Source of the DNA: Luteibacter sp. OK325
GTDB lineage: Bacteria > Pseudomonadota > Gammaproteobacteria > Xanthomonadales > Rhodanobacteraceae
Direction of reading: 5' to 3'
NCBI RefSeq assembly: GCF_003050935.1
Contig: NZ_QAOX01000001.1
Coordinates: 1-64,000, forward strand
DNA length: 64,000 bases
Shown: positions 4 to 28,550 of the stretch, one piece after another
Layout: every line of letters begins with the position of its first letter
How positions within the stretch are numbered: position 1 is the stretch's first letter
Notes under the pieces: generated by a model
Database searches by the model: none
Told to the model about the DNA's origin: nothing
What the model saw: the letters and a program-made list of their open reading frames with translations, nothing else
Program-made: the position numbers and the translations under genes

Positions 4-225
4 ACCGTATCGTCGTGAGAGACCTTGGTGTCCACCCTCGAGGCGAGTTCCGCACAAGTGGAGCGGCCGTAGGCCAGATAGATACATGGGCCGCGTGAGC
101 GGCCTTCCGATCCGAACGCGGAGGACTGTCTGAGCAGCGAGGGTGGGCACCAAGGTCTCCCCCGCGAGACGCCCAAGTGTAGAGAGCGATGGCAAAGCCG
201 AGCCGCCCCCGAGGCCGTAGGCGAG
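4..225 (+). repeat. Long palindromic extragenic element, family 1, copy 1
   Basis: Non-coding element of about 220 bases. Its outer arms, 19-40 and 138-159, are inverted repeats matching at 21 of 22 positions. The interior carries a second GC-rich palindrome around GGCCGCGTGAGCGGCC. The same element recurs inverted at 10927-11147, matching over its whole length including the flanks outside the arms, and in a shorter form at 11379-11520. It begins at the window edge, so the true left boundary is not visible. It lies just past the 3' end and terminator of the minus-strand SapC gene. There is no transposase inside, so it resembles a MITE or oversized REP element rather than an insertion sequence. 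Confidence 0.8.
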
Positions 226-304
226 CCATGGGCGAGGTGCGAGGTGCGAAAGATTGCCCGGCTTGAAAGCCGAGCGCCCGGGCCGCGGCAATCCGCGAAG
301 AACC

Positions 305-334
305 AAAAAAAGGCCACCGCGAGGGTGGCCTTTT
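305..334 (-). terminator. Rho-independent terminator of the SapC-family gene
   Basis: A GC-rich hairpin (AAGGCCACC / GGTGGCCTT with a four-base loop), read on the minus strand, is followed by seven T residues. It lies about 20 bases past the stop of the SapC-family gene, so it is assigned to that gene. Confidence 0.85.
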
Positions 335-355
335 CATTCGGAACAACCAGGACGA

Positions 356-1111
356 TCAGACCTTGGCCGGTTCGTCCTTGGCTTCGCGCGAATCCAGACG
401 CATGGCCATGCGGTCGATGTTGGCCAGCGAGACCAGGTGCGAGTAGATCCAGCCGAACGCGCCTTCCCGGAGGAACTCGTGGGCAACCTTCTCGTCGAGC
501 GTGCGCAGCTTCTCTTCGTTGATCACGAACAGGCCGTTGAGGTTGATGCCCTTGCCTTCCTTCTGCAGGGTGATGGTGCGCTCCTCAAGCAGGTTGTGCT
601 CGCGCAGCTTGCCCATGAACCACTGCGTGCGGGCGACGTGGTCCTGGAACTCGCCGAGGAACTTCACGGCATTGGTCAGGGCCGGCGCGTCGGTGCCGTC
701 TTCATTGAAGAGGCGCTCGCCTTCGCTGTCGTTGAAGCCTTCGTAGGCCTCGTCGAGGAACACGGTGAAGTCGTCACCCTCGGTGCCGACCGGCTTTTCG
801 GCCAGCACGAACGGGTAGCGGCGGATGAAGGCCGGAATGTACAGGCCCGTTTCCCAGAAGCCGTTCTCGCCAACCAGCAGGTTCTCGCCCTGGCGCAGAC
901 CGAGGAGGGCCATCGGGCCTGCTTCCTCGATGGTGTTGCCGGCGAACAGGATCGGGTAGTCACGCGCGGCGGGCGCGAATTCGACGCCCGTCAGCGGCAC
1001 GGAGTGCGCGCCGGCGGCGAAACGGATGTTGTTGACCGCCTTGATGCGGAGGTCGCGGTGCGCGGTGCGGTTCAGCGGAACCGGACGCTCGTAGAAAAGC
1101 ACTTCTGCCAC
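356..1111 (-). CDS. SapC family protein
   Basis: This 251-residue soluble protein matches the SapC family (Pfam SapC type), named after a Campylobacter surface-layer associated protein. The biochemical role is not established. Family features seen here are the N-terminal YERPVPLNRTAHRDLRIK segment, the central GLRQGENLLVG stretch, the FIRRYPFVL motif and the C-terminal GINLNGLFVINEEKL region. No signal peptide or membrane segment is visible. In Xanthomonadales such genes often lie near TonB-dependent receptors and tryptophan halogenases, but here it stands alone, transcribed away from the HNH nuclease gene and ending in its own terminator. The family call is firm and the function is unknown. 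Confidence 0.85.
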   Translation of the reverse strand: MAEVLFYERPVPLNRTAHRDLRIKAVNNIRFAAGAHSVPLTGVEFAPAARDYPILFAGNTIEEAGPMALLGLRQGENLLVGENGFWETGLYIPAFIRRYPFVLAEKPVGTEGDDFTVFLDEAYEGFNDSEGERLFNEDGTDAPALTNAVKFLGEFQDHVARTQWFMGKLREHNLLEERTITLQKEGKGINLNGLFVINEEKLRTLDEKVAHEFLREGAFGWIYSHLVSLANIDRMAMRLDSREAKDEPAKV

Positions 1112-1373
1112 AGTGGAACCCTCTATACCCGTCGGACCTGGGAAGCCACCCCGGCCCCCCTTCCAAACCCGCCGGGACTCTATCGAACGCCCACTATATC
1201 AGCGCTTCGCGGCCCGAACAGCCCCGCAAGAAGCGGGCCGAGGCGGTGCTTTTCTGTAGCAATAATGGGCTATGCTCGGGTCAACGCCCCTTGTGGGGTC
1301 GGATCAAACCATCGATCCGCACGGAGTTCGACTGGCTGGAACGCTCTTTCGCTTACGTGAAGGACGAGACACG

Positions 1374-1982
1374 ATGACGATGGAAGTGCTTCAGGATGAC
1401 CTGCCCAGGGTGACCGCGCTGAACGCCACGCGCGTGCTCTCCCTTGACGCGGCAGGCCGCATCCTGGACTGGATCAGCTGGCAGGACGCCGTCTGCCTGT
1501 ACGTTCGTGGCGTGGTCGCCTGGACGCTCGGCGACCCCTGTCTGACCGTCCACGGCGGCCTCAGCCGCGCCAGTGGACTTCAGAGCAGTCTCCAGCTCCA
1601 CCCGATCGTCGCAAGCACCGGCCACTGCCGTGAACACGCCATCGATCCGGCCCCGGCCCTCACCAACACCGCCCTGTTCGCCCGCGACCGGCACATCTGC
1701 CTGTACTGCGGTCACCATTACACACGCCATGAGCTCACCCGCGACCATGTCCTGCCGCTGTCCAAGAAGGGCGCAGACGAGTGGGAAAACGTGGTCAGCG
1801 CTTGCCTGGCCTGCAACCTGCGCAAGAGCAACCGCACACCGCAGCAGGCCAATATGCCGCTCCTGGCCGTGCCATACCGACCCAGCTGGGTCGAACACCT
1901 GATCCTTTCCAACCGCAATATCCTGGCCGACCAGATGGAATTCCTGGTCGGTCACCTGCCGCGCGACCGCCGCCCGGCCTGA
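1374..1982 (+). CDS. HNH endonuclease domain protein
   Basis: A 202-residue protein with an HNH/McrA-type nuclease fold in its second half. Cys109-x2-Cys112 and Cys144-x2-Cys147 form the usual structural zinc site, and the catalytic segment is RDHVLPLSKKG with His125, followed by WENVVSACLACN. The N-terminal hundred residues resemble no domain I recognise. The start at 1374 was chosen because an AGGA-type ribosome site lies about ten bases upstream and the extension further upstream looks non-coding. Solitary HNH genes of this type are widespread in gammaproteobacteria; the substrate is unknown. It precedes dxs by about 75 bases on the same strand, so co-transcription is possible. Confidence 0.8.
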   Translation: MTMEVLQDDLPRVTALNATRVLSLDAAGRILDWISWQDAVCLYVRGVVAWTLGDPCLTVHGGLSRASGLQSSLQLHPIVASTGHCREHAIDPAPALTNTALFARDRHICLYCGHHYTRHELTRDHVLPLSKKGADEWENVVSACLACNLRKSNRTPQQANMPLLAVPYRPSWVEHLILSNRNILADQMEFLVGHLPRDRRPA

Positions 1983-2058
1983 ATCCCGCCCTCACCTGCC
2001 CGCAAAGATTCACGCCTCGTCCCTTGCCCCGGCCCGTCCGTAGGCGAACAATAGGCGA

Positions 2059-3954
2059 ATGAACGACCTCTCCCGCTACCCTTATCTGGCGCAGATCGAA
2101 TCGCCGGAGGACCTCCGACGCTTTCCGGATGACGAACTGCCGGCGATCGCCGACGAACTGCGCCGCTATCTGATCGAGGCCGTGGCCTCGTCGGGCGGGC
2201 ATTTCGGCGCGGGCCTGGGCGTGGTCGAACTGACCGTCGCCCTGCACCATGTCTTCGACACCCCGCGCGACAGGCTCGTCTGGGACGTCGGCCACCAGTG
2301 CTATCCGCACAAGATCCTTACGGGTCGTCGTGACCGGATCACCACGATCAAGAAGAAGGATGGCCTGGCCCCGTTTCCTCGTCGCGAAGAGAGCGAGTAC
2401 GACACCTTCGGTGTCGGCCATTCATCGACCTCGATCTCGGCCGCGCTCGGCATGGCCATCGCCCTGCAGCGTCGGGGTGACAACCGCAAGGTCGTCGCCG
2501 TCATCGGCGATGGCGCGATCACCGCCGGCATGGCCTTCGAGGCACTGAACCACGGTGGCGATGTCGAGCCGAACATGCTCGTGATCCTCAACGACAACGG
2601 CATGTCGATCAGCGAAAACGTCGGCGCGATGACCAAGATGATGGCTCGCGCCATGTCCAGCCGCACCCTTAACGCCTGGCGCGAGCGGGCAAAGAAGGCC
2701 ATGCCGCGCGAGTCCTTCTTCGGCCGCTTCTTCAAGCGCTGGGAGGAACACGCCAAGGGCATGTTCGTGCCGTCCACCCTGTTCGAAGAACTCGGCTTCC
2801 ATTACACCGGCCCGATCGACGGCCACAACATGGCCCAGCTGGTCACCGCCCTGGAAACGGTCAAGGCCCTCCCCGGGCCGCAGCTGATCCACGTGATGAC
2901 AACCAAGGGCAAGGGCTACGAGCCGGCCGAAAAAGGTCCGATCGAATACCACGCCGTCGGTCCGTTCGACCCGGTTGCCGGCGTCGTGAAGAAGGGTGCG
3001 CCGGCCAAGCCGACGTATACCGACATCTTCAGCGACTGGCTTTGCGACATGGCGGCAACCGACGAGCGCCTGCTCGGCATCACGCCGGCGATGCGCGAAG
3101 GCTCAGGTCTGGTCCGCTTCTCCAGGGAATATCCGCAGCGTTACTTCGACGTGGCGATCGCCGAACAGCACGCGGTCACGCTGGCTGCCGGCATGGCGGT
3201 GGAAGGCGCCAAGCCGGTGGTGGCGATCTACTCCACCTTCCTCCAGCGCGCATACGACCAGGCCATCCACGACGTGGCCCTGCAGAACCTCGACGTCACC
3301 TTCGCCATCGACCGTGCCGGTGTGGTCGGCCCCGACGGGGCGACCCATTCGGGCAGTTTCGATCTGTCGTTCATGCGTTGCCTGCCGAACGTGGTGATCA
3401 TGGCGCCGGCCGACGAGCACGAATGCCGGACCATGCTCAGCACGGGCTTCCACTACAAGGGGCCCGCGGCCATCCGGTACCCGCGTGGCACCGGTCCGGG
3501 TGCGAAGATGGCCGAGTCTCTGGAAACCTTTCCGATCGGCAAAGCCGAAGTGCGTCGCCGCGGCCATCACGGCCTGGCCATCCTCTCCTTCGGCACCATG
3601 CTCGCGCCCGCCGCGGTGATCGCCGCCGAGGTGGACGCCACGCTGGTCAACATGCGCTTCGTCAAACCGCTGGACGAGGAACTGATCCTCGAGATGGCAC
3701 GCACGCACAAGGCGTTCGTCACCATCGAGGACAACGCCATCGCCGGCGGTGCCGGTGCGGGCGTTGCGGAGCTGCTAGCGGCGAACGGTGTCACCCTGCC
3801 GATCTTCCACCTCGGCCTTCCGGACGCCTATCTGGAACACGGCAGTCGTGAGGAAGTGCTGACGATGGCCGGCCTCGACCTGCCGCAGATCCGCCGTGCG
3901 ATCGTGACGCGATTCCCGCAATTCGTGGCGACGGAAGTGGCCAGCGCGGGCTGA
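2059..3954 (+). CDS. dxs: 1-deoxy-D-xylulose-5-phosphate synthase
   Basis: Thiamine-diphosphate enzyme that condenses pyruvate with glyceraldehyde 3-phosphate, the first step of the MEP isoprenoid pathway, also feeding thiamine and pyridoxal synthesis. At 631 residues it has normal length (E. coli about 620). Visible motifs are SSGGHFG at 45-50, [16 protein letters not shown] at 75-90, GVGHSSTS near 118-125, and the diphosphate/Mg-binding stretch [15 protein letters not shown] at 150-164 followed by NDN at 178-180. The C-terminal half carries the transketolase pyrimidine domain ([15 protein letters not shown]). It is convergent with prmC, with only five bases between the stop codons. Confidence 0.97.
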
Positions 3955-3959
3955 TCCGA

Positions 3960-4781
3960 TCAGGGACTGTGACGCGCTCCGGAAACCCGGTCGCGTCCTT
4001 CCAGGTCCTGCGCCGTGAACGGCTCGGCGAGTCCCGCGCGCTCTAGCACCTCGCGAACCGAGGGGCCCTGGTTCCAGCCATGCTCCAGCAGCAGCCAGCC
4101 ACCAGGCGTCAGGTGCCGGGGCGCCGCCCGGGCAATACGCCGGATATCGTCGAGGCCGTCGCTACCCGAGGCCAACGCACTGATGGGCTCGAATCGCAGA
4201 TCGCCCTGGCCGAGATGTTCGTCGCCTTCCTCGATATACGGAGGATTACTGACGACGATGTCGAACCCCCCGTCCGCCAGCGCCGCGAACCAGTCACCTT
4301 CCGCGAAACGGACGCGCTGAAGTCCGAGCCTTTCCGCGTTACGTCGGGCCACCTCGAGCGCGGCCCCGCTGGCGTCGACCGCACTGACCGATGCATCGGG
4401 ACGCTCCTTCGCGATCGCCAGGGCGATCGCACCGCTGCCGGTGCCGAGGTCGACGACGCGGCCACGCCGCGGCAGGCGCTCGAGAGCCAGCTCCACTAGC
4501 AGTTCCGTTTCCGGACGGGGAATCAGCGTGGCGGCGGTCACCTCGAGGGTCATCGACCAGAAGTCCCGCGTCCCGGTGATGTAGGCCACAGGTTCGCCAC
4601 GCGCCCTGCGGTGCACCAGCGCATCGAAACGCACACCGGCCGCCGCGTCGAGCGCATCGTCCGAATGGGCGAAGAACCAGGCGCGATTCACCCCGAGCAC
4701 GTGCGCGAGGAGCAACTCCGCTTCGAGGCGATCACCAAGGGCGTCGGCGGACTGGCGCAGGATCGTACGGACATCGGTCAT
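3960..4781 (-). CDS. prmC: Peptide chain release factor N5-glutamine methyltransferase
   Basis: S-adenosylmethionine-dependent enzyme (formerly HemK) that methylates the glutamine of the GGQ motif in release factors RF1 and RF2, raising termination efficiency. At 273 residues it has family length. It shows the helical N-terminal domain ending in [13 protein letters not shown] (58-70), IPRPETE (87-93), the SAM-binding [11 protein letters not shown] motif (111-121) and the catalytic NPPY tetrad (179-182) that holds the glutamine amide. Genes for prfA and hemA, frequent neighbours in other species, are absent here. It is transcribed divergently from the lipoprotein esterase gene. Confidence 0.95.
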
Positions 4782-4846
4782 GCGCGAAGTCTAGCGGGTG
4801 GACGGCGGCAAGGCTCAGGCAAGGCGCCGGCCGCTACAATCACGCC

Positions 4847-5728
4847 ATGCCCCTCCGCGTCCTTCTCCTGTCGATTGCCCTGCTCCTGGGGGGCTGCCAA
4901 TCCGCCTTTTTCGGCGCCATGAATGCGAGGCAATCCAGCGAGGGTGTCGTCGCCCATGGCAACCTCGTCTACGACGAAACCAACCAAATCGCGCTGGATG
5001 TCTATGCGCCCGTCCATGCCGATCACGCACCGGTGGTCGTGTACTTCTACGGCGGCAGCTGGATGAGCGGCAAGCGGCAGTGGTTCCGCTGGATGGGTGA
5101 AGCGCTGGCCGCGCAAGGCGTGGTGACCATCGTGGCCGACGTTCGCCTGTGGCCGCGGACGCGACTGGACGGCTTCCTTCACGACGGTGCCGAGGCCGTA
5201 CGCTGGGCTCGCGACCATGGGGGCGAGTTCGGGGGCGATCCCAGCCACCTCTTCGTCATGGGCCATTCCTCCGGCGGGCAGATCGCCGCCATGTTGGCCA
5301 TGGACAAGCAGTGGCTCGCCGCCGTCGGCATGAAACCGCGGGACCTGGCCGGCTTCATCGGCGTCGCCGGCACCTACGACTTCATTCCCTTTGATGAGCC
5401 CGAGTTCTACGACATGTTCGGTCACACACCCGATGAACAGGCTCGCTCACAACCGATCAACTTCGTCGACGGTGACGAGCCACCCGCGCTACTGCTGCAG
5501 GGCGAGAAGGACACCATCGTCTATCCCTCCGAGGCGGTTGCGCTGGAGGGTCGCTACCTGCAGCAGGGTGAGCCCGTGGACCTGAAGCTTTACCCAGGAG
5601 TGGGGCACGAAAGGCTCCTCCTCGCGTTCGGTCCGCTGAAGAACAAGGCATCTGTGCTCGCCGACACCATGGCCTTCATCCATCGCTACTCGCGCGGCCC
5701 TTTGTGGGAGCCGATTCATCGGCGATAA
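4847..5728 (+). CDS. Alpha/beta hydrolase lipoprotein (esterase-like)
   Basis: A 293-residue secreted hydrolase. Residues 1-17 form a lipoprotein signal ending in LLGGC, so Cys17 is the predicted lipidation site. The mature part is an alpha/beta hydrolase of the BD-FAE/carboxylesterase type: oxyanion-hole segment YFYGGSW (66-72), nucleophile elbow GHSSGG (139-144, Ser141), with Asp222 and His254 completing the triad. Substrate unknown. The last eight residues (LWEPIHRR) and the stop codon are written by a REP repeat (5703-5726), so the original C-terminus has probably been replaced. No close operon partner is visible. Confidence 0.85.
   Translation: MPLRVLLLSIALLLGGCQSAFFGAMNARQSSEGVVAHGNLVYDETNQIALDVYAPVHADHAPVVVYFYGGSWMSGKRQWFRWMGEALAAQGVVTIVADVRLWPRTRLDGFLHDGAEAVRWARDHGGEFGGDPSHLFVMGHSSGGQIAAMLAMDKQWLAAVGMKPRDLAGFIGVAGTYDFIPFDEPEFYDMFGHTPDEQARSQPINFVDGDEPPALLLQGEKDTIVYPSEAVALEGRYLQQGEPVDLKLYPGVGHERLLLAFGPLKNKASVLADTMAFIHRYSRGPLWEPIHRR
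5703..5726 (+). repeat. REP-type repeat overlapping the 3' end of the esterase gene
   Basis: GTGGGAGCCGATTCATCGGCGA, the same 22-24 base unit as at 7921-7944 and 48475-48649. It contains the small palindrome CCGATTCATCGG. Here it lies inside the open reading frame and supplies the last codons, and its final bases lead into the TAA stop. Confidence 0.85.
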
Positions 5729-5739
5729 CCAGATCGCGG

Positions 5740-6642
5740 CTACCTCGCTTTCATCGCATCGCGCCCTTCGGCATTCCCACCGCGTGCCGCGTCGAGCACT
5801 TCCGGGTACGGATAGTTGAGCCCCAGTAACTGACGGATATCCGCGCTCGCGTTCTTCACGAACTCGGCCGGGAGCGCCGCGGGCATATCTTCCATCGGCT
5901 TGACGAACTTCGGCAGGTACTGGGTGATGATCGCGGAGCGGTCGATCGTGCTGCGATTGGGCATGGCGCAATGCCATACGGCGCCGAAGAAAATCACAGT
6001 GTCACCCGGCTCACCGAGCATGCGCTCACAGCGCTCGAAGAACCGGTCGCTCTCGTCGGGGTAGTGCAACTCACGCTGCGTGCCCGGCACGAAGGCCGTC
6101 GCACCCGTTTCTTCGGTAAACGGATCGAGCATGATCGTCGCCTGCGCGTTCAGCGGAAATGTCGCATTGATACGCGCAGGATGTGTTTCCGGCGAATGGA
6201 AATCCCAGTACGGATAGTCGATGTGCGGCTCCTGCCCCGGGCCGCCGGGAAGGATACGGTTCGCCGCGATCGACCCCATGATGAATTCGCTGCCGATGAA
6301 GGCGCGCATCACTTTCATGATCGCCGGATGCGCGGCCATTCGCGAAAAGATCTCACCCTTGGCCAGCAGGTTCCACACGCGGCGTTGCAGGTTGATGCGT
6401 CCGGCCTTCACCGCATCGCCCTGGAAATGGGTGACTTTGCGACCGCGCTCGTCCGCGTCGGATTCGCGCATGACGATTTCACGGGCTTCGGCAATTTCCG
6501 CCGGAGTGAACAGCCCCCGAAGCGTCACCGCACCGATACCGTCGAGCAACTCGCTCACGATGGCATCGGTGTCGAGCCTGTCTTCGGTAAAGACCCGAAT
6601 GCGGAAGGGCGAGCGGGGAACGGAATGCGCGGAGGCATGCAT
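5740..6642 (-). CDS. Phytanoyl-CoA dioxygenase (PhyH) family protein
   Basis: A 300-residue member of the Fe(II)/2-oxoglutarate oxygenase superfamily, PhyH branch, which usually hydroxylates a small organic substrate with succinate and CO2 as by-products. The iron facial triad is visible: His140 and Asp142 in EPHIDYPYWDFH, and His224 in AVWHCAMPNRS. Arg235 in DRSAII is the expected 2-oxoglutarate anchor. The substrate cannot be read from sequence. The gene is divergent from a Gfo/Idh/MocA oxidoreductase across a 145-base region holding a perfect LacI-type operator, which suggests oxidation and dehydrogenation of a sugar, cyclitol or related compound under one repressor. Confidence 0.88.
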   Translation of the reverse strand: MHASAHSVPRSPFRIRVFTEDRLDTDAIVSELLDGIGAVTLRGLFTPAEIAEAREIVMRESDADERGRKVTHFQGDAVKAGRINLQRRVWNLLAKGEIFSRMAAHPAIMKVMRAFIGSEFIMGSIAANRILPGGPGQEPHIDYPYWDFHSPETHPARINATFPLNAQATIMLDPFTEETGATAFVPGTQRELHYPDESDRFFERCERMLGEPGDTVIFFGAVWHCAMPNRSTIDRSAIITQYLPKFVKPMEDMPAALPAEFVKNASADIRQLLGLNYPYPEVLDAARGGNAEGRDAMKAR

Positions 6643-6714
6643 GGCTGGCTCCTGCCGCGACAGCGGCTCGGTTAGGGCGGGCGAAGCGCCGGTTCAGGAA
6701 CTACGCTATGCCGT

Positions 6715-6732
6715 TTTGCAAGCGCTTGCAAA
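6715..6732. promoter_or_regulatory. LacI/GalR-type operator between divergent catabolic genes
   Basis: Perfect 18-base palindrome TTTGCAAGCGCTTGCAAA with the central CG typical of LacI/GalR-family operators. It sits between the divergent PhyH and oxidoreductase genes, and the likely cognate repressor gene is at 7963-8985. A plausible sigma-70 promoter for the oxidoreductase has its -35 box (TTGCAA, 6726-6731) inside the right half of the palindrome and a weak -10 (TAGAGT, 6750-6755, spacing 18), which would explain repression by steric blocking. Confidence 0.8.
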
Positions 6733-6787
6733 CCGCACTGCAACATCCCTAGAGTCGGTTGTACCAAATGCCAGGAAGAGCCAAGCG

Positions 6788-7906
6788 ATGAGCGAACTAC
6801 GGATCGGCCTGATCGGCGCCGGCTACATGGGCAAGGCGCATACGGTGGGCTTCCAGGCCGTCGGGGCGGTGTTCGAGACGGCCCTCCGCCCCGTCTGCGA
6901 GATGATCGCGACATCGACCGCGGAAGGTGCCGCGGAGCACGCCCGCCGTTGGGGCTGGCAGCGGTCGACAGGCGACTGGCGCGAACTGGTCGCCGATCCC
7001 CGAGTCGACGCCGTGGTGATCGCCACGCCGCCTCGCACCCATCTGGACATGGTGATGGCCTGCATCGCGGCCGGGAAACCGGTGTTCTGCGAGAAACCCC
7101 TGGGTGCCAGCGCGGATGAATCCCGGCGCATGACCGAAGCAGTCGAGCGCGCTGGCCTGGCCAACATGATCGGCTTCAACTACATCCGCACCCCGGCAAG
7201 CCAACTGGCGCGGCAGATCATCGCCTCGGGCGAGATCGGCGATGTGATCCAGGTCACCGCCGAGCATGTGGAAGACTACCTGCACGATCCCGCCCTACCC
7301 GCCTCGTGGCGCACACGCATCGCCACCGGCACGGAAGCCGGCGCCCTTGGGGATGTCGCACCGCACATCGTGAACGCCTGCCTGCGCCTGGTCGGCCCGA
7401 TTGCGAGCCTTGTTGCCGACACGAACATCGTTCACGCGCGCCGCGACGGCCCGAACGGATGGGAGGCGGTCGAGAACGACGATCAGGGCCAGATGCTCCT
7501 GCGATTTGCCAACGGGGCCACGGGCAGCATCAGCTTCAGCCGCATGGCCGCGGGACGGAAGATGGGCTACACCTACCGCATCACAGGCACGCGCGGCGCC
7601 GTCGCGTTCGATCAGGAAGACCAGAACGCCCTGTGGCTTTACGACGCTGCTCGTGATCCGGCGCGGAGAGGTTTCCAGAAGCTGTTGATGGGCCCGGCTC
7701 ACCCGGACTACCTCGCCTTCAACCAGGGCGTCGGCCACGGCACCGGTTACAACGACCAGATCGTCATCGAAGCCCGTGATTTCCTGCAGGCCGTGGCAAC
7801 CGGCGAAGCAGTGTGGCCCACGTTCCGCGACGGCTACGAAGTCGACCGCGTGATCGAAGCCGCCCTCCTTTCAAACCGCGAACGCCGCTGGGTCAACGTG
7901 GAGTAG
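6788..7906 (+). CDS. Gfo/Idh/MocA family NAD(P)-dependent oxidoreductase
   Basis: A 372-residue dehydrogenase of the glucose-fructose oxidoreductase/inositol dehydrogenase family. The N-terminal Rossmann fold carries IGLIGAGYMGKAH (6-18), and the cofactor/substrate motif CEKPLG is at 101-106. The C-terminal alpha/beta domain holds the HIVNACLRLVG segment expected near the active site. The start at 6788 has an AGGAAGAG ribosome site; upstream extension would run through the operator and the PhyH gene start. Family members oxidise sugars, inositols and their derivatives; the exact substrate is not recognisable. It is predicted to be repressed from the palindrome at 6715-6732. Confidence 0.9.
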   Translation: MSELRIGLIGAGYMGKAHTVGFQAVGAVFETALRPVCEMIATSTAEGAAEHARRWGWQRSTGDWRELVADPRVDAVVIATPPRTHLDMVMACIAAGKPVFCEKPLGASADESRRMTEAVERAGLANMIGFNYIRTPASQLARQIIASGEIGDVIQVTAEHVEDYLHDPALPASWRTRIATGTEAGALGDVAPHIVNACLRLVGPIASLVADTNIVHARRDGPNGWEAVENDDQGQMLLRFANGATGSISFSRMAAGRKMGYTYRITGTRGAVAFDQEDQNALWLYDAARDPARRGFQKLLMGPAHPDYLAFNQGVGHGTGYNDQIVIEARDFLQAVATGEAVWPTFRDGYEVDRVIEAALLSNRERRWVNVE

Positions 7907-7920
7907 CGCCCCCACCCTCC

Positions 7921-7944
7921 TGTAGGAGCCGATTCATCGGCGAT
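7921..7944 (+). repeat. REP-type repeat
   Basis: TGTAGGAGCCGATTCATCGGCGAT, a single REP unit between the convergent oxidoreductase and LacI genes. It matches the units at 5703-5726 and in the 48475-48649 array. Confidence 0.85.
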
Positions 7945-7962
7945 CCGATAGGCCTCACCGAC

Positions 7963-8985
7963 TCACCCCCGCCGCAGACTCCCCCGAACCACCAATTCAC
8001 AAGCAAACAACTTACTTCGGGGCACCGAATCAGGCTCCTCCATCCAGGCAACGATTCGCTCGATCGCATGCAACACCATCTCGCGAATGGGCTGCTTCAC
8101 CGTCGTAAGCGAATAGGACGCCCATGCCGCCAGGGGCATATCGTCGAAGCCAACGATGCTGACCTCACCCGGTACATCGACGCCACGCTCACGGCAGGCG
8201 TCCATCGCACCGAGCGCCAGCACGTCATCGCCACAGAAGACGCCATCCAGTCGGTCGTTGCGGTCCAGTAGCGTATGCATCGCCAAACGGCCGTGTTCGT
8301 GCGTGTAGTTACCCGCATGCAGGGTCTGTCGCAGTGAGGGCCCGGCCACTTCGGCGAACCCCTTGCACCGATCGATCGTCGAAGCATCGTGTGCCGAGCC
8401 GCCGAGGAAGGCGAGACGACGCAGGCCTCGTGAGCGCATGGCCTCGGCCACCAGACGGCCACCCTCGACGTTGTCGACCGTCGCCACAGGCACGGGCGAG
8501 GACCGCCCCGCGCGACCGAACACGTGCAACACCGGGAGGCCCGCCGCACGACATGACGCGGCGAAGCCCACCGGCGGCGCAGAGGTAGCGATCAGCACCG
8601 CATCGACGTTGTACTGCTGCAGCATGTCGAGCGCGGCTTTGCCGTCTTCGTCTTCGCCCAGGTTCGCGAGCAAGGGCCGCAACCCACGTGCCTGCAGCTC
8701 GCGGGTAAAGAGGTCGAAGACCTCCATGAAGGTTGGATTGGCGAAATGATTGGAGACGAGCCCGATGAGTTCCGTCCGCCCTGTCATGAGGCTGCGCGCG
8801 AGCCGGTTCGGCTTATACCCAAGCCGCTCCGCCGTCTCAATGACGAGCTCACGCGTCTTCGCAGAAACGCTGGCTCCCGGTGTGAACGTCCGTGAAACGG
8901 CTGAAATGGAAACGCCCGTCGCCTCCGCCACATCGCGTGCGGTAGCGGGAGAGGCGCGAGCAGGCGAGCGGGTACGTGACGGCAT
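7963..8985 (-). CDS. LacI family transcriptional regulator
   Basis: A 340-residue repressor. The N-terminal helix-turn-helix (TARDVAEATGVSISAVSRTF, about residues 15-34) and hinge segment NRLARSL (60-66) are typical of LacI/GalR proteins. The C-terminal two-thirds is the periplasmic-binding-protein-like effector domain (IGLVSNHFANPTFMEV, DGVFCGDDVLALGAMDA, SIVGFDDMPLAAW). The first fifteen residues are a basic, low-complexity extension. It is convergent with the oxidoreductase gene and close to the perfect LacI operator at 6715-6732, so it is the obvious candidate to bind there. The effector is unknown. Confidence 0.93.
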   Translation of the reverse strand: MPSRTRSPARASPATARDVAEATGVSISAVSRTFTPGASVSAKTRELVIETAERLGYKPNRLARSLMTGRTELIGLVSNHFANPTFMEVFDLFTRELQARGLRPLLANLGEDEDGKAALDMLQQYNVDAVLIATSAPPVGFAASCRAAGLPVLHVFGRAGRSSPVPVATVDNVEGGRLVAEAMRSRGLRRLAFLGGSAHDASTIDRCKGFAEVAGPSLRQTLHAGNYTHEHGRLAMHTLLDRNDRLDGVFCGDDVLALGAMDACRERGVDVPGEVSIVGFDDMPLAAWASYSLTTVKQPIREMVLHAIERIVAWMEEPDSVPRSKLFACELVVRGSLRRG

Positions 8986-9164
8986 ACATCAAGGTTAGCG
9001 CATCAGGCGACCGGCCAAACAATCGATCCGCTGAAATGGCACCGTAGGCTCAAGCTACGGGTTTGTCTCGAAAAACACCGAGGTGTATTGCAGCTGACCC
9101 ATGTTCTCCTCTCACCCCCAACGAGCTATCGTTTGCTTGTCGTTGTCCAACACAGGAGCGTGAA

Positions 9165-9503
9165 ATGAGAATGACGAAGATCCGCGGTTACTCGCTCGCC
9201 ATGATGGCGATGCTGGCCCTATGTGGGGAAGCCACCGCTGCAGGCATCACATGTCCCGCCGCCAGTGCCATCAAGCAGTCAGGCACGTCGAATGCCGGGA
9301 CGCAGCAGGAAGAAACGGACTACACGGCGACGGAAGGCGGAAAGACGTGGAAGGGGTCGGTTTCCGCATACGACGAACACACCGTCGACCTGAAGACCCT
9401 TAGCGCTGGGAAAGCAGCGACAGCCAACGCCAAAGGCCTCGTTGCATGCGATTACTTCAACGGCGAAACGGCCGCGCTTCGCCTGACGACGGACACCAAG
9501 TAG
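9165..9503 (+). CDS. Small secreted protein of unknown function
   Basis: A 112-residue protein with a signal peptide of about 26 residues (MRMTKIRGYSLAMMAMLALC... ending near ATAAG). The mature part has two cysteines that could form a disulphide (ITCPAAS and LVACDYF) and a Thr/Gly/Lys-rich middle. I recognise no domain. The start was placed at 9165 because AGGAG lies six bases upstream. It belongs to a patch of small unrecognised genes between the LacI regulator and the aminopeptidase. Confidence 0.6.
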   Translation: MRMTKIRGYSLAMMAMLALCGEATAAGITCPAASAIKQSGTSNAGTQQEETDYTATEGGKTWKGSVSAYDEHTVDLKTLSAGKAATANAKGLVACDYFNGETAALRLTTDTK

Positions 9504-9560
9504 CCGAAGCATGAAAAGCTGGGCGATCACTCGCCCGGCCTTCGGTACTACCAGGTTGCA

Positions 9561-9720
9561 TCAGGCGACGACCGAGATGGGGAGGCGCAGTGCCTCCATC
9601 AGTCTCATGCGGTCGGCGAGGCCGACGTAGAAAACCGTCAGGGCTTCAACCCATGGACGCGAGCGGACGCCACGTCGAATGCTTTCGAAAACGGTGGCCC
9701 TGCCACGTGGACTGACGGAC
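9561..9720 (-). pseudogene. Decayed 3' fragment of a paralogue of the 9793-10209 gene
   Basis: Translating the minus strand gives an open stretch ending at a TGA (9561-9563) whose last residues are VFYVGLADRMRLMEAL..ISVVA. The intact neighbour ends VSLYDGLMDWMKMMETQPARISVIA, so both share the Y-x-GL-x-D-x-M-x-x-ME and ISV-x-A pattern in the same order. No matching upstream half or start is found in this frame, and a second open frame overlaps it, consistent with frameshift and decay. A hairpin with a short T-rich tail lies just past the stop (about 9516-9540) and resembles a worn terminator. The homology is judged by eye only. Confidence 0.45.
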
Positions 9721-9792
9721 GTGCGGTGATCGGCGTTCGCAAGGTTGTCCTTGTTACGGCATAGGCACCCGGCCCCAGTACCGGCCCGAGAA

Positions 9793-10209
9793 TCACGCGA
9801 TCACCGAAATGCGGGCGGGCTGAGTCTCCATCATCTTCATCCAGTCCATTAGTCCGTCGTACAAACTCACCAGCTTCGAGAATCCATTGTCACGAGCAAA
9901 GCCGGCCATGCTGCTGATGGTTGCGGTAAAGTCCATGGGCACGTCTGGACGCTCGGCGTACCACTCTCCGGGAATTGCGCCGAAGAGTGTCGTGCAATAC
10001 AGCCCGTCGGGACCGTCGATCTGTCCGCTCATGAGGCGATCGTCGAGGTAGGCCTGTAGTTGTCGTGGCGTGATATTCGAAAAGTCGACAGCCCTCGGGG
10101 TGCTGTAACCAAGTATTTTTGTCTCGGATGGTGGCTCAATGGGCTTCTGCATGGTCGTCGCTGGTAATGCGAACATGCCCACCGTTATGGTCGAACTCGT
10201 GACTTCCAT
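9793..10209 (-). CDS. Hypothetical protein with adjacent decayed paralogue
   Basis: A 138-residue protein that I do not recognise. The start at 10209 (MEVTSSTITVGMFALP) is preceded on the minus strand by AGGAAG at good spacing; the open frame extends a further 31 codons upstream but without a ribosome site. The N-terminus is mildly hydrophobic but not a clear signal peptide. Visible stretches are PRAVDFSNITPRQLQAYLDD, a Cys-containing GLYCTTLFGAIPGEWY, and the aromatic, methionine-rich C-terminus. A fragment with the same C-terminal pattern lies downstream at 9561-9720, suggesting an old tandem duplication. Function unknown. Confidence 0.55.
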   Translation of the reverse strand: MEVTSSTITVGMFALPATTMQKPIEPPSETKILGYSTPRAVDFSNITPRQLQAYLDDRLMSGQIDGPDGLYCTTLFGAIPGEWYAERPDVPMDFTATISSMAGFARDNGFSKLVSLYDGLMDWMKMMETQPARISVIA

Positions 10210-10455
10210 GAAGCTGCTTCCTGATCGGGATGAGCCAAGAGACCAGAGAACAGCTCGCCTCGATAGACGTCCTACTGACACCGCGACGACGGCTGTCACC
10301 ATGTATAGCCTCTCGCCTACACCCTACGACCGCCGGAAATCGATCACGCATGATTGAGGCGTAAGCCGCCATGGTTTTCATCCGCGCGCCATCGAATTAC
10401 CAGGAAAGGTACTCGGATGATGCCTCGGCCTATTCAGGCTGAGGAGAATGAATTC

Positions 10456-10887
10456 ATGAAGCGATTCGTCGTTACCGCGTGCGTGTTAAGTCTGATGCTT
10501 GGCATCGGCGCGGCCCACGCCAGCAATAGTCTTACGCGGGTGTACGTGCACCACGTGAACTCGTCGAAAGGAGGCACTGAGGTCATCCCGCAGGGTGGCT
10601 CGTGGACCGCCCGAGACCACGGCGGCGCCACGTTCCAGATCGTTACCGACGAAATCGGCTACGGGCACGGCGCGCAGGCACGACTGCTCGGAACGCCTCT
10701 TCGCGAGGTCAAGTACGAATCCCTCTGCAACGTTGGCGGTCGCCTGGGATCCTGCCCACGCGGCGCAACGATCATCGGCCATCGCAGCACATGGGACGCC
10801 AGCGGTCGCGACGGTGGAAACTTCGAGGTCGTCGTGTTTCCAAACGGCTTCGGCAGTTCGAAGCGAGCCACCTTGCAAATCCGCTGA
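10456..10887 (+). CDS. Small secreted protein of unknown function
   Basis: A 143-residue protein with a clear signal peptide (MKRFVVTACVLSLMLGIGAAHA, cleavage near residue 22). The mature part is Gly/Thr-rich with one Cys pair (ESLCNVGGRLGSCPRG) and looks like a compact beta-rich secreted domain. GAGGAG at 10441-10446 fits as the ribosome site. I recognise no family. The gene is immediately followed by a family 1 palindromic element (10927-11147, inverted). Confidence 0.6.
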   Translation: MKRFVVTACVLSLMLGIGAAHASNSLTRVYVHHVNSSKGGTEVIPQGGSWTARDHGGATFQIVTDEIGYGHGAQARLLGTPLREVKYESLCNVGGRLGSCPRGATIIGHRSTWDASGRDGGNFEVVVFPNGFGSSKRATLQIR

Positions 10888-10926
10888 TAGAAAAAAAGGT
10901 TCTTCACGGGTTACCGGGGTCCAGGC

Positions 10927-11147
10927 GCTCGCCTTCGGCCTCGTGGGCTCGGCTTCGCCGTTGCTCTCTACACTTGAGCGTCTCGCGGAGGAGACCTGGG
11001 TGCCCACCCTCGCTGCTCAGACAGTCCTCCGCGTTTCGTACCGGAAGGCCGCTAACGCGGCCCGTGTATCTATCTGGCCTACGGCCACTCCACTTGTGCG
11101 GAACTCGCCTCGAGGGCGGGCACCCAGGTCTCTCACGACGATACGGT
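10927..11147 (-). repeat. Long palindromic extragenic element, family 1, copy 2
   Basis: Inverted copy of the element at 4-225. The arms are 10991-11012 and 11111-11132, matching at 21 of 22 positions. Similarity to copy 1 continues outside the arms on both sides: the CTCTACACTTGAGCGTCTCGC side, and the ACGATACGGT side that mirrors ACCGTATCGT at 4-13. Compared with copy 1, the arm reads ACCTGGGTG instead of ACCTTGGTG, and the opposite arm changes in step. Confidence 0.8.
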
Positions 11148-11378
11148 TAGCTGTAAGGCGAGCCGTTGGCGTGCGTGTGACCGCCGAAGCGGACCGTTAC
11201 GGTGGCCGTGCCGGCACGTCATTTCCGGTCCGGTGAGCGCCGTCGTAGCTGCTGCGATGCCTCGTGAGGACGATCGCGACCGGCGCGACGCGGTTGACCG
11301 TTTGGCGATGGCGACGAGCCAGCAGTCGAAGCGGCTTTGCTTTATCGGCTCGACCCGCACGAACCTCAGGGATGGGAA
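11148..11378. other. Non-coding spacer between two inverted palindromic elements
   Basis: No convincing gene. Open frames in this stretch run into the flanking repeats and have neither ribosome sites nor recognisable protein content. It carries short self-complementary stretches but no terminator or tRNA that I can identify. Confidence 0.5.
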
Positions 11379-11520
11379 GAGCCTTCGGTGCCCACCCTCG
11401 AGGCGAGTTCCGCACAAGTGGAGCGGCCGTAGGCCAAATGAGTACACGGCCGCGTTAGCGGCCTTTCCGGTACGGAACGCGGAGGACTGTCTGAGCAGCG
11501 AGGGTGGGCACCGAAGGCTC
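11379..11520 (+). repeat. Long palindromic extragenic element, family 1, copy 3
   Basis: Shorter copy of the family in the same orientation as copy 1 and facing copy 2. The arms 11379-11400 and 11499-11520 are perfect 22-base inverted repeats. They read GCCTTCGGTG where copy 1 has ACCTTGGTG, so both arms have changed together. The interior holds CGCACAAGTGGAGCGGCCGT as in copy 1, and AGTACACGGCCGC (11441-11453), which is shared with the second element family at 57127-57139. It ends about 50 bases before the aminopeptidase terminator. Confidence 0.8.
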
Positions 11521-11571
11521 TGCGCCGCCACGTCCGTCGCTTGCAGCGTCCCCGGAATTCCGCGATGAACC

Positions 11572-11604
11572 AAAAAAAGGCCGGGCGATCGCTCGCCCGG
11601 CCTT
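11572..11604 (-). terminator. Rho-independent terminator of the M1 aminopeptidase gene
   Basis: A hairpin with GGCCGGGCGA paired to TCGCCCGGCC, read on the minus strand, is followed by seven T residues. It lies about 25 bases beyond the aminopeptidase stop codon. Confidence 0.85.
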
Positions 11605-11626
11605 CGGTGTTACACGTCGAAAACGA

Positions 11627-14314
11627 TCAGCGCGTGATCGCCTTCGGGTCCTGCTTCGCCTTCAGCGCCGCACACAGCAGAGTCGACTCGCTGGTCTGGG
11701 CCAGGTCGCGCTCCGCACCGCTCACCTGCGCGAGCTTCGGCTTGAAGTACTCGCTCATGCGGTCGGCTTCGGCCTTCGAGCAGCTGCCGCCTGCGGCCAT
11801 CGTGACGAGCCTGCCGCCGGCGAAGCTGCCGGTACGCGCCACGATCTTGTCGTAGTTGGTCGTGTACCACTTCCACAGCTCATTGCGCGAGGCTTCGGAA
11901 TCACGGTTGCCACGCATCAGCGATGCCATCTCGCCCACCTTCACGTCCTTGCCCAGCGAGAAGTCGCGCACCTTGTTCGACTGCGTCACGTCCTTGGTGC
12001 TCGCAAGGGCCGAGAGCATCGCATTGCGCTTGGCCGGGTCGGAGGTCTTCGGGATCTCGGCGATCAGCGCATCGATGGCCGGTGCGCCGCGTTCCTGCAC
12101 TGCCACGCCAAGCGCGTCGCCGAGCAGGTCGGGATCGGCGGCATCGAGGTCCAGATGCCCATCCTTGACCTTCAGTGCGGCGTCGCCCTGCTTCAGCAGC
12201 TCGGCACGGACTTCCGGCGCGGCGATGTCATCGTCACCCAGGAAGCCGGCGAGTGTCGTGCGGGTAATCGTGTCGTTGTCGGCTTCGCCGGCCTTCTTGC
12301 GGTAGCCCAGTTCCTTGAGCTTCGGCAGGTAGGCGTCCACAGCCCACTTGCGCAGGTGATCGCGCTGGGCGTCGGTGGTGGCTTCGTTGTGGAGGATCCA
12401 GTTGAACGTGACGATCGGTGCGGTGAAGACTTCGCGGGTCTTCGAGGCCGTGATGGGCTTGAGCGCGGCGAGCACGTTACCGGCGTCGAGGTCGCCATGC
12501 AGGAACGCTGCACGTACGGCGTCCACGTAGGCCAGCTGCTCGGCATCGCTCAGCGTGCCGACTACCTTGCTTAACGCGGCGAGGTCGGTCTTGTTCTGCG
12601 CGAAGCGGTAGTAACCACGACCGTTCGCGTTCGGCAGCACCCACGTGCCCTTGGCCGCATCGTCGAGCACCATGGTGCCGGTGGCCTGGTCGAACAGCTC
12701 GCACTTGACCTTGTTCGCACCGCCGGCCGTGCCGTAGCGCACGCACATCGGCACGCCCCACACGCGGCTGGCATCGCCCGTGCTGCCCAGTGGCAGGTAA
12801 CGGCTCTGGGTCAGGTGGAGGACGGTCTTGCCACCTTCGACCTTCACCTCAGTGGTGACGTAAGGCACGCCCGACTGGTTGAGGAAGCTGCGGAAGGCGC
12901 TCTTGAACGCATCGCCCTGGCCAGCGGCCTCGGCGATCGAGTCGATCAGGTCATCGGCCGTCGCGTTGGCGAACTTGTGCTTCTGGATGTAGGCGCGCAT
13001 GCCCTTCTGGAACACCGGGTCGGTGACATAGCCCTCGAACATGCCGAGAACGGCAGCACCCTTCTGGTAGGTGATGCCATCGAACGCGGTTTCGATATCA
13101 CCGTTGCCGGTGATCGGCTGGCGGATCTTGCGCGCGCTGACCAGGCTGTCGTTGTTCATTGCGCCTTGCGCGCCGCGAACACGGTCGAGATCGGCGCGGT
13201 ATTCCGGGTGCACCTTGGTGGTGACCTTCTGCTGCATCCAGGTGGCGAAGGCTTCATTGAGCCAGAGGTCGTCCCACCAGGCCATGGTCACGGTGTCGCC
13301 GGTCCACTGGTGTGCCAGTTCGTGCGCGTTGACGTTGAACGAGCCGCGGACGTACTGCGCCGCCGAATCCGGATCGATCAGCAGGAGCCAGTCACGGAAG
13401 GTGACCAGGCCCGCATTCTCCATGGCGCCGGCGCTGAAGTCAGGCGCGGCGAGCAGGTCGAGCTTGTCGTACGGGTAACCGAAACCGTAGTAGTCCTCGA
13501 GCGTGTGGATGATCGAGTTGGTCTCGCCCAGCACGTGCTGCATGCGATGGCCCTCGCCCTTGGCGGCGATGCCGCGCAGCGGCGTGGCGGTCGTGCGGAA
13601 TTCGGTCGGCGAAATGTCCGGCCCCTTCACGACGTCCCAGGGACCCACGGCAAACGCGACCAGGTAGGTCGGCAGCGGCTTGGTCGTGGAGAAAGTGAGC
13701 GTCTTCCAGCCCGCACCGGCCTTTTCTTCTTTCACCTGGGCGGTATTGGCCACGCCCTGGTCGTCGGCCGGAATGGTCAGGCTGAGATCGAACGGGACCT
13801 TGAACGACGGCTCGTCGAAGCCCGGGAATGCATAACGCGCGGAGACCGGCTCCATCTGCGTCATCGCGTACGGCACGCCTTCGTGCGAGACCTTGTACAG
13901 GCCCTGCAGCTGCTTGTTCAGCGGCGCGGTGAATTCGATCGCCAGGGTAATTTCCTGCGGCTCAAGCTTCGCGCCGAGATCGATGCGCGCGACGCCTTCC
14001 TTCTCGGCAGCCACGGTGTACTTGCCGACGTGCTTCTTGCCAGCGGCATCAGTCACGGTGACCTTGGAGACCTTGAGGTCCTTACCGTGCAGCCAGATGA
14101 AATCCGACGCCTGGCTCAGCTTGATCTTGATCGTGGTCGAGCCGGAATAGTTTTCCTGCTTGGGGTCGACCTTGAAGGCCAGCTTGTAGTTTTCCGGCTG
14201 GGCCCAGGTAGGCAGGTGGCCGAGGGGCGCGGCGGCGTCCGTGCCGGCGGCGAAGGCGGCGCCACAGCAGGTGGCGAGCGCGGTGAGAACGAGAGGACGG
14301 ACGAAACGACGCAT
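11627..14314 (-). CDS. M1 family zinc aminopeptidase, secreted
   Basis: An 895-residue metallo-aminopeptidase that removes N-terminal residues from peptides. A signal peptide of about 22 residues (ending AAFAAG) directs it to the periplasm or outside. The exopeptidase motif GAMENAG is at 296-302, the zinc site HELAHQW at 331-337, and the downstream glutamate in NEAFATW near 354. The N-terminal beta domain carries the MTQMEPVSARYAFPGFDEP region typical of M1 enzymes and the C-terminal half is the ERAP1-like helical domain. Length and the signal peptide fit the Xanthomonadales secreted M1 group rather than cytosolic PepN, so no symbol is given. It ends in its own terminator. Confidence 0.93.
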   Translation of the reverse strand: MRRFVRPLVLTALATCCGAAFAAGTDAAAPLGHLPTWAQPENYKLAFKVDPKQENYSGSTTIKIKLSQASDFIWLHGKDLKVSKVTVTDAAGKKHVGKYTVAAEKEGVARIDLGAKLEPQEITLAIEFTAPLNKQLQGLYKVSHEGVPYAMTQMEPVSARYAFPGFDEPSFKVPFDLSLTIPADDQGVANTAQVKEEKAGAGWKTLTFSTTKPLPTYLVAFAVGPWDVVKGPDISPTEFRTTATPLRGIAAKGEGHRMQHVLGETNSIIHTLEDYYGFGYPYDKLDLLAAPDFSAGAMENAGLVTFRDWLLLIDPDSAAQYVRGSFNVNAHELAHQWTGDTVTMAWWDDLWLNEAFATWMQQKVTTKVHPEYRADLDRVRGAQGAMNNDSLVSARKIRQPITGNGDIETAFDGITYQKGAAVLGMFEGYVTDPVFQKGMRAYIQKHKFANATADDLIDSIAEAAGQGDAFKSAFRSFLNQSGVPYVTTEVKVEGGKTVLHLTQSRYLPLGSTGDASRVWGVPMCVRYGTAGGANKVKCELFDQATGTMVLDDAAKGTWVLPNANGRGYYRFAQNKTDLAALSKVVGTLSDAEQLAYVDAVRAAFLHGDLDAGNVLAALKPITASKTREVFTAPIVTFNWILHNEATTDAQRDHLRKWAVDAYLPKLKELGYRKKAGEADNDTITRTTLAGFLGDDDIAAPEVRAELLKQGDAALKVKDGHLDLDAADPDLLGDALGVAVQERGAPAIDALIAEIPKTSDPAKRNAMLSALASTKDVTQSNKVRDFSLGKDVKVGEMASLMRGNRDSEASRNELWKWYTTNYDKIVARTGSFAGGRLVTMAAGGSCSKAEADRMSEYFKPKLAQVSGAERDLAQTSESTLLCAALKAKQDPKAITR

Positions 14315-28474: not shown

Positions 28475-28550
28475 GGGTCGTTAGCTCAGTTGGTAGAGCA
28501 GCGGACTTTTAATCCGTAGGTCGCCGGTTCGAATCCGGCACGACCCACCA
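28475..28550 (+). tRNA. tRNA-Lys (anticodon TTT)
   Basis: 76-base cloverleaf: acceptor stem GGGTCGT paired with ACGACCC, D-loop AGCTCAGTTGGTAGAGC, anticodon stem with loop CTTTTAA (anticodon TTT at 28508-28510), T-arm GGTTCGAATCC, and an encoded CCA end. The reverse strand encodes the well-known spurious tRNA-derived peptide GRAGFEPATYGLKVRCSTN. No integrase or att duplication is visible next to it. Confidence 0.97.

Follow-up and report, generated by a model that had tools for sequence, protein, structure and literature searches.

Mobile insertion cassettes (MICs) are bounded by terminal inverted repeats (TIRs), contain no transposase of their own and carry passenger genes, while group IIC introns target intrinsic terminators and the attC sites of integrons are arrayed in direct orientation. 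Bacterial miniature inverted-repeat transposable elements (MITEs) include Correia/NEMIS, ERIC, RUP and CIR, the last of which consists, in the part of its description drawn on here, of two inverted-repeat arms and a linker (PMC2229807). REPINs are presented as pairs of inverted hairpin units in intergenic space whose multiplication is believed to depend on a domesticated enzyme acting in trans (PMC3116915, PMC8266576), and REP units are described as carrying a GTAG/CGTC tag (PMC3733652). The first 64,000 nucleotides of contig NZ_QAOX01000001.1 of Luteibacter sp. OK325 (hereafter the window) contain palindromes that, judged from their sequence, are on balance probably subterminal modules at the ends of Luteibacter transposons, a TIR-bounded and non-autonomous family with a terminator target and a single-strand fold. 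The window forms the start of contig C1 of this genome (G000, the own genome; 4.94 Mb in 21 contigs), and the literature searches made found nothing on this repeat family.

The element and its end modules

The complete element of the window is 674 bp long (10898–11571) and bears imperfect TIRs at both ends, namely GGTTCTTCACGGGTTACCGGGG on the plus strand (10898–10919), which has two mismatches to the pattern and is 77% complementary to the other end, and GGTTCATCGCGGAATTCCGGGG on the minus strand (11550–11571), which matches the pattern exactly. Both ends begin with GGTTC. Between them lie an end module of arm type CTGGG with its outward strand on the minus strand (10991–11132, arms 10991–11012 and 11111–11132), a spacer (11133–11377) whose listed open reading frames (ORFs) extend into the modules and were judged not to be genes, and an end module of arm type TTCGG with its outward strand on the plus strand (11378–11521), recognised by its arm repeats and a BLAST match. 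By outward strand is meant the strand read from the element's interior towards its end. The same layout of TIR, link, inverted module, spacer, module, link and TIR was read in G000 loci, most of which, among those searched, show a second inverted match about 200 bp from the first. In all fetched DNA 95 of 96 neighbouring module pairs stand in (-,+) order, with spacers of 178 to 1748 bp.

A sequence-only reading of the window had described three separate palindromes of about 220 bp. Re-inspection bore out the three copies and their common interior, of which a 30-mer matches three times in the window and never in 100 shuffles, as well as arms that differ between copies in step. These arms are 89% complementary over 27 nt in copy 1 (14–40/138–164), 95% over 22 nt in copy 2 (10991–11012/11111–11132) and 100% over 23 nt in copy 3 (11378–11400/11499–11521). 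The unit is instead a module of about 145 bp, mostly one of two inverted modules in a TIR-bounded element, and copies 2 and 3 form the pair of end modules of the single element at 10898–11571 and hence not independent copies. Copy 1 is present, not as a complete unit but as one half of an element that is cut off by the start of the contig (G000:C1:1). This right half of a second element, assigned by its module match and its TIR, occupies 1–304 on the plus strand and comprises a module of arm type CTTGG (14–164, plus strand) and a TIR with one mismatch (283–304, minus strand). It is followed by an A7 tract (305–311), the flank of the insertion site that has been kept, which by sequence belongs to the next terminator (hairpin at about 312–335). 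The nature of the element, its boundaries and its terminator target were absent from the sequence-only reading, which was right in placing no transposase inside; the ORF list of the window elements, as read by the analyst, agrees.

Positions 1–20 of the window thus lie within an element at a contig start, and among the sites listed further TIRs occur near C4:122, C7:328, C10:678 and C1:922856 of 923045. Given how close these TIRs are to contig ends, assembly gaps may conceal further copies.

Insertion into the T-tracts of terminators

The complete element is flanked by two A7 tracts (T7 on the other strand), one at 10891–10897 and one at 11572–11578. The latter is the T-tract of the terminator of an 895-aa ORF (11627–14314, minus strand), which we presume from the analyst's reading alone to be M1-aminopeptidase (pepN)-like. 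The intrinsic-terminator hairpin lies beside the insertion on the minus strand (11579–11605; stem 11605–11576 with 13 pairs, followed by the T-run). Each of the 23 Luteibacter genomes contains a homologous 3' part of this ORF. In the sister genome G019 the site is empty and consists of the terminator hairpin, one T8 tract and matching downstream sequence; the own genome reads T7-element-T7 here. At this terminator G009 likewise lacks the element; downstream of the same gene, G007 has a module of a second class and G008 an element with a class-1 module.

The flanks of 34 G000 loci were surveyed, without L024, for which the search window catches the adjacent L015 element instead. Eighteen left and 22 right ends were recognised, and 39 of these 40 adjoin an A/T run of at least 4. 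Both ends were recognised in 12 loci; 11 of these have tracts on both sides, in every case (11/11) of the same base. A hairpin of -10 kcal/mol or better was found in the adjoining 35 nt of all 26 tracts tested, compared with 26 of 106 control stretches. Two duplications of 8 bp are not homopolymers (TCTTTTTT at L007 and CTTTTTTA at L029), and L267 is flanked on either side by TAAATAAA. Sequence comparison shows that the elements occupy the T-tract of intrinsic terminators and that the own-genome type duplicates this tract on insertion, by 7–8 bp; mobility and target are, to the extent that filled and empty sites can show them, established, as is the covariation described next.

Arms that change in step

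The alignment of class-1 modules (A1) comprises 102 distinct modules from 13 genomes, with at most 12 per genome, after modules with an interior above 120 nt had been dropped (180 of 205 kept); the regions analysed are a selection of the listed matches and not all copies of each genome. RNAalifold predicts 31 pairs for these modules, 12 of them with double changes. When only the arms and one small hairpin are considered (25 pairs), 99.0% of the cells are paired and two-sided changes occur in 10 of the 25 pairs and in 185 cells. The covariation score is 0.229 against 0.099 ± 0.005 in shuffles, none of 500 shuffles reaches any of five measures, and pairing drops to 37–52% when the structure is slid along the alignment. 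Related sequences can exceed shuffles without any structure, a known caveat of the tool, and the two measures that are least affected (counts of pairs or of types) were exceeded as well.

The second module class has a different interior and is represented by 15 modules in L091, L094, L096, L097, L099, L100, L101 and L185, all of which except L185 were fetched via the GGTTCATTCGC-type TIR. Here 98.1% of arm cells are paired with 13 distinct arm pairs, while whole-arm shuffles give a mean of 84.5% and a maximum of 92.7%. The arm tally is 263 Watson-Crick, 3 G.T, 0 A.C and 4 other pairs, with the two outermost positions (2 G.T, 1 A.C) excluded. The modules thus contain a helix of about 21 bp whose arms vary in step around a conserved interior, with usually one inverted module at each end. 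In-step change of the arms, as described in the sequence-only reading, is strongly supported in both classes at the sequence level.

Copies with broken arms, which that reading had named as evidence against itself, do exist and are rare. Among 188 modules, 161 have all 20 arm pairs in Watson-Crick or G.T form, 22 have 1–2 unpaired positions and 5 have 3–4. There are also five 5' halves that have no 3' half. L015 and L025 resemble fusions of left and right modules. L003 and L028 carry 26-bp tandem repeats of 3' arm and link outside the left-type module, and L028 has four more arm copies.

Strand asymmetry and the forces acting on the arms

A G.T mismatch on one strand is an A.C mismatch on the other, and the two are far from equally frequent. 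On the outward strand the ratio of G.T to A.C to other mismatches is 173:11:25 in 205 modules (206 before one with a truncated flank was dropped) and 174:11:28 in 224 modules; both sets required a match at 8 of 12 arm positions and are weighted by this towards intact arms. It is 164:14:31 in the 188 modules, which are bounded by interior motifs alone and free of that rule. This excess of G.T on the outward strand is a new observation. When each combination of genome, position and pair is counted once, the genome-level events are 45:8, 47:8 and 44:11 for the sets of 205, 224 and 188 modules (p 9e-6 for the last), and removal of the two most variable positions leaves 25:7 (p 0.002, 224-module set). 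Both main arm types are asymmetric, with 28:3 and 21:5 genome-level events. Of the G.T types, 11 are kept in at least 3 modules and 4 are rare, compared with 1 and 6 for A.C types (p 0.02). The interior serves as a control: its rare variants have no strand bias (54:59), from which 44:11 and 25:7 differ with p 6e-5 and p 0.003. The asymmetry extends to the hairpin CATTCGC-N4-GCGAATG of the GGTTCATTCGC-type TIR, where 89 sites contain 8 outward wobbles of three kinds, 0 inward wobbles, 1 compensated pair and 2 other changes.

Mutation bias was rejected as the source of this pattern since the interior is unbiased and since rare within-group variants of Watson-Crick pairs, sorted by the resulting pair, yield 21 G.T, 7 A.C and 18 other (p 0.013; against the interior p 0.011). 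Such an asymmetry is not expected from cruciform DNA or from repair that treats both strands alike, but is expected from a folded outward strand of RNA or single-stranded DNA (ssDNA). Together with the unbiased interior, the G.T excess favours selection on one folded single strand, be it RNA or ssDNA, over cruciform formation or template-switch repair alone. The sequence-only reading had offered selection or gene conversion acting on the hairpin as cruciform or RNA; its in-step change stands, whereas its double-stranded cruciform is opposed by the asymmetry.

It is nevertheless conceivable, if unlikely, that template-switch (quasipalindrome) repair alone has shaped the arms, with stalled replication copying arm from arm and no selection on the folded product. 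The mechanism has been published as a process that creates and maintains RNA hairpins, and it has also been offered for asymmetric base-pair frequencies in stems (PMC8794818). The arm types of the modules differ as blocks, and a tandem duplication of the 3' arm lies downstream in 15 of 221 modules, as against 0 of 221 with a 5' arm upstream, which implies that copying errors do occur at the hairpin. Since insertions are found in both orientations, template-switch repair, as the analyst reads it, should correct G.T and A.C alike, yet the genome-level ratio is 44:11 beside an unbiased interior, and some elements with unpaired arms have stayed uncorrected.

Selection might alternatively act on ssDNA during transposition, the module folding on the 3'-ended (outward) strand where it would be read by the transposase or a partner, and this too is improbable in our estimate. 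It would account for an asymmetry that reaches the TIR hairpin and is seen in both main arm types (28:3, 21:5), and for modules that adjoin the ends in the classes read. However, single-strand transposition in its known forms relies on the same strand at either end and is not known to leave a target duplication, whereas here opposite strands are involved at the two ends and the tract is duplicated. That the modules are passive relics of an ordinary MITE whose arm pairing was inherited from a few founder lineages is very unlikely: it would suit the three arm types of the own-genome modules (32, 27 and 3) and the fixed types of left and right modules in the own-genome loci listed, but it would need at least 12 Watson-Crick pair-type switches in the 21-bp helix by the analyst's count, and the second class covaries too while the interior is conserved across 13 genomes.

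Several observations weigh against a terminator-targeting transposon with end modules selected as a folded strand. In 8 elements whose GGTTCATTCGC-type ends were inspected by eye no duplication is visible, the sense of the modules could not be read for L255, L256 and L264, and searches for ISL3, IS256, IS1595 and IS6 gave no own-genome candidate for the transposase. Five elements, L015 and L025 among them, retain unpaired arms. The modules are related, hence their mismatch events are not independent, and counting each position and pair type once gives just 15:7 (p 0.13), so that the asymmetry depends on mismatches that persist and that recur in different genomes. Rare arm variants tallied crudely by base change (21 C>T and A>G, 15 G>A and T>C) do not differ from those of the interior (p 0.34); this tally ignores the partner base, and the recount by resulting pair is given above. 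The complement of the module at 11378–11521 folds very well too (-87.1 kcal/mol, z -9.3, compared with -95.4 kcal/mol, z -10.2 for the outward strand), and a sigma-70 scan found no sigma-70-like promoter in 10850–11650, spacer included. Finally, G.T is stable in ssDNA as well, so that RNA and ssDNA are not separated by it.

A possible role for the folded strand

Arms that change together suggest that the element works partly as a folded single strand, probably RNA. The modules combine covariation with strand-specific wobble in the manner of a structured RNA, though the asymmetry is only 15:7 (p 0.13) by position and pair type. A known RNA family was rejected, as Rfam yields only a tRNA (28475–28547) at gathering score in the window and only weak matches below gathering scores in the element. 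As regards transcription, enzyme and the role of the fold, we infer the following. The TIRs would be recognised by a trans-acting transposase, and genes would be spared by insertion into terminator tracts. The outward strand of each half may act as a folded single strand, most likely RNA, in which case a transcript would start in the spacer or in cargo and exit through the module and the TIR hairpin. The fold could then protect or end cargo transcripts, or serve as an element-encoded RNA. If this is correct, a bacterial transposon limits harm by way of terminator T-tracts, and selection maintains a single-strand fold at each of its ends. The wobble asymmetry with its interior control is in addition a simple sequence test which could separate selection on RNA or ssDNA from hairpin-templated mutation in families such as ERIC and NEMIS.

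Cargo genes

A few elements carry genes. Between two end modules of L067 (2145–3879, G013:C83) lie genes for a DUF4365 protein and a 386-aa protein, which match PADLOC PDC-M02A (8e-56) and PDC-M02B (2e-104) and form a candidate anti-phage pair. An element with second-class modules (L091, G003:C1:4024004-4025441) encodes DUF4279 and DUF6968 proteins, and an element of 2751 bp (L254 288–3039, G022:C3) a DUF4062 protein and a 121-aa protein; PADLOC gave no match for the DUF4279, DUF6968 and DUF4062 proteins. The left end of L254 has two different TIR motifs in tandem. A peptide of about 43 aa is encoded in L068, L069, L092, L093 and L098, elements of G003, G010 and G013. It was rejected as a defining gene, since 19 of 23 genomes have relatives of it (E <= 0.01), including genomes in which no modules were found. 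An IS110-type transposase within L092 and L109 was read as a passenger. A transposase-like ORF inside one module of L073 (1300–2510, G007) was likewise read as a passenger, and may be IS30-like.

The PDC-M02 cargo makes the element a possible vehicle for small defence systems. Rather speculatively, the family may consist of terminator-seeking Luteibacter cassettes whose arm-diversifying, structured RNA or ssDNA ends serve mobility or host insulation, and which a putative transposase in trans would move so that defence genes pass between strains.

Distribution and the search for a parent transposase

A 139-bp query gives 41 BLAST matches in G000. BLAST detects modules in 14 of 61 genomes, each a Luteibacter, and found no relatives in 38 genomes outside the genus. 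With strict filters a covariance model finds the module in 8 of 147 genomes of the family and in 1 of 26 genera, all 8 belonging to this genus, from which 12 genomes had been drawn. TIR-like sites with up to 3 mismatches are present in at least 19 of 23 genomes of the genus. L255 (G022), L256 (G004) and L264 (G015) have GGTTCWTCGCG-like ends around other palindromic interiors, L255 lying between A7 tracts.

No transposase of its own was found inside any element read, the IS110 gene of L092 and L109 and the ORF of L073 being regarded as passengers. Among insertion sequence (IS) families that might supply a parent, IS1595 (0 of 23 genomes), IS256 (1 of 23, G002) and IS6 (1 of 23, G006, below cut-off) were rejected. 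ISL3 was discarded as well: the weak PF01610 matches were read, in the 15 loci whose translations showed it, own genome's included, as a fatty-acid-desaturase-like gene, and clear ISL3 is found only in G013, with a fragment containing a stop in G020. This desaturase-like gene by the analyst's reading, in L206 and its orthologues, is a trap for IS counts on account of its weak match to PF01610 (ISL3).

Comparison with known systems

Like the bacterial MITEs Correia/NEMIS, ERIC, RUP and CIR, the element is short, dispersed and intergenic, has TIRs and a target duplication and folds strongly. The features shared by MITEs and MICs are largely present: TIRs at both ends, no transposase of its own in the elements read and a target duplication, seen in the own-genome type and in L267 and not in the 8 loci whose GGTTCATTCGC-type ends were read. 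Unlike MITEs, it has usually two inverted structured modules with covarying arms and a strand-specific mismatch pattern, enters terminator T-tracts rather than TA and occasionally carries genes. MICs resemble it in being TIR-bounded, free of a transposase and able to carry passenger genes; the structured end modules set it apart from them, and among the four families tested no parent IS was found. REPIN/RAYT systems share with the element an inverted pair of intergenic hairpin units, and differ in having a palindrome of 20–40 nt as against modules of about 145 nt, and a GTAG/CGTC tag where this element has GGTTC ends and a target duplication. Group IIC introns have a terminator target in common with the element and differ from it otherwise, since it has TIRs and a T-tract duplication and no Rfam ribozyme match. 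Unlike integron attC sites, which stand in direct orientation, 95 of the 96 neighbouring module pairs are inverted.

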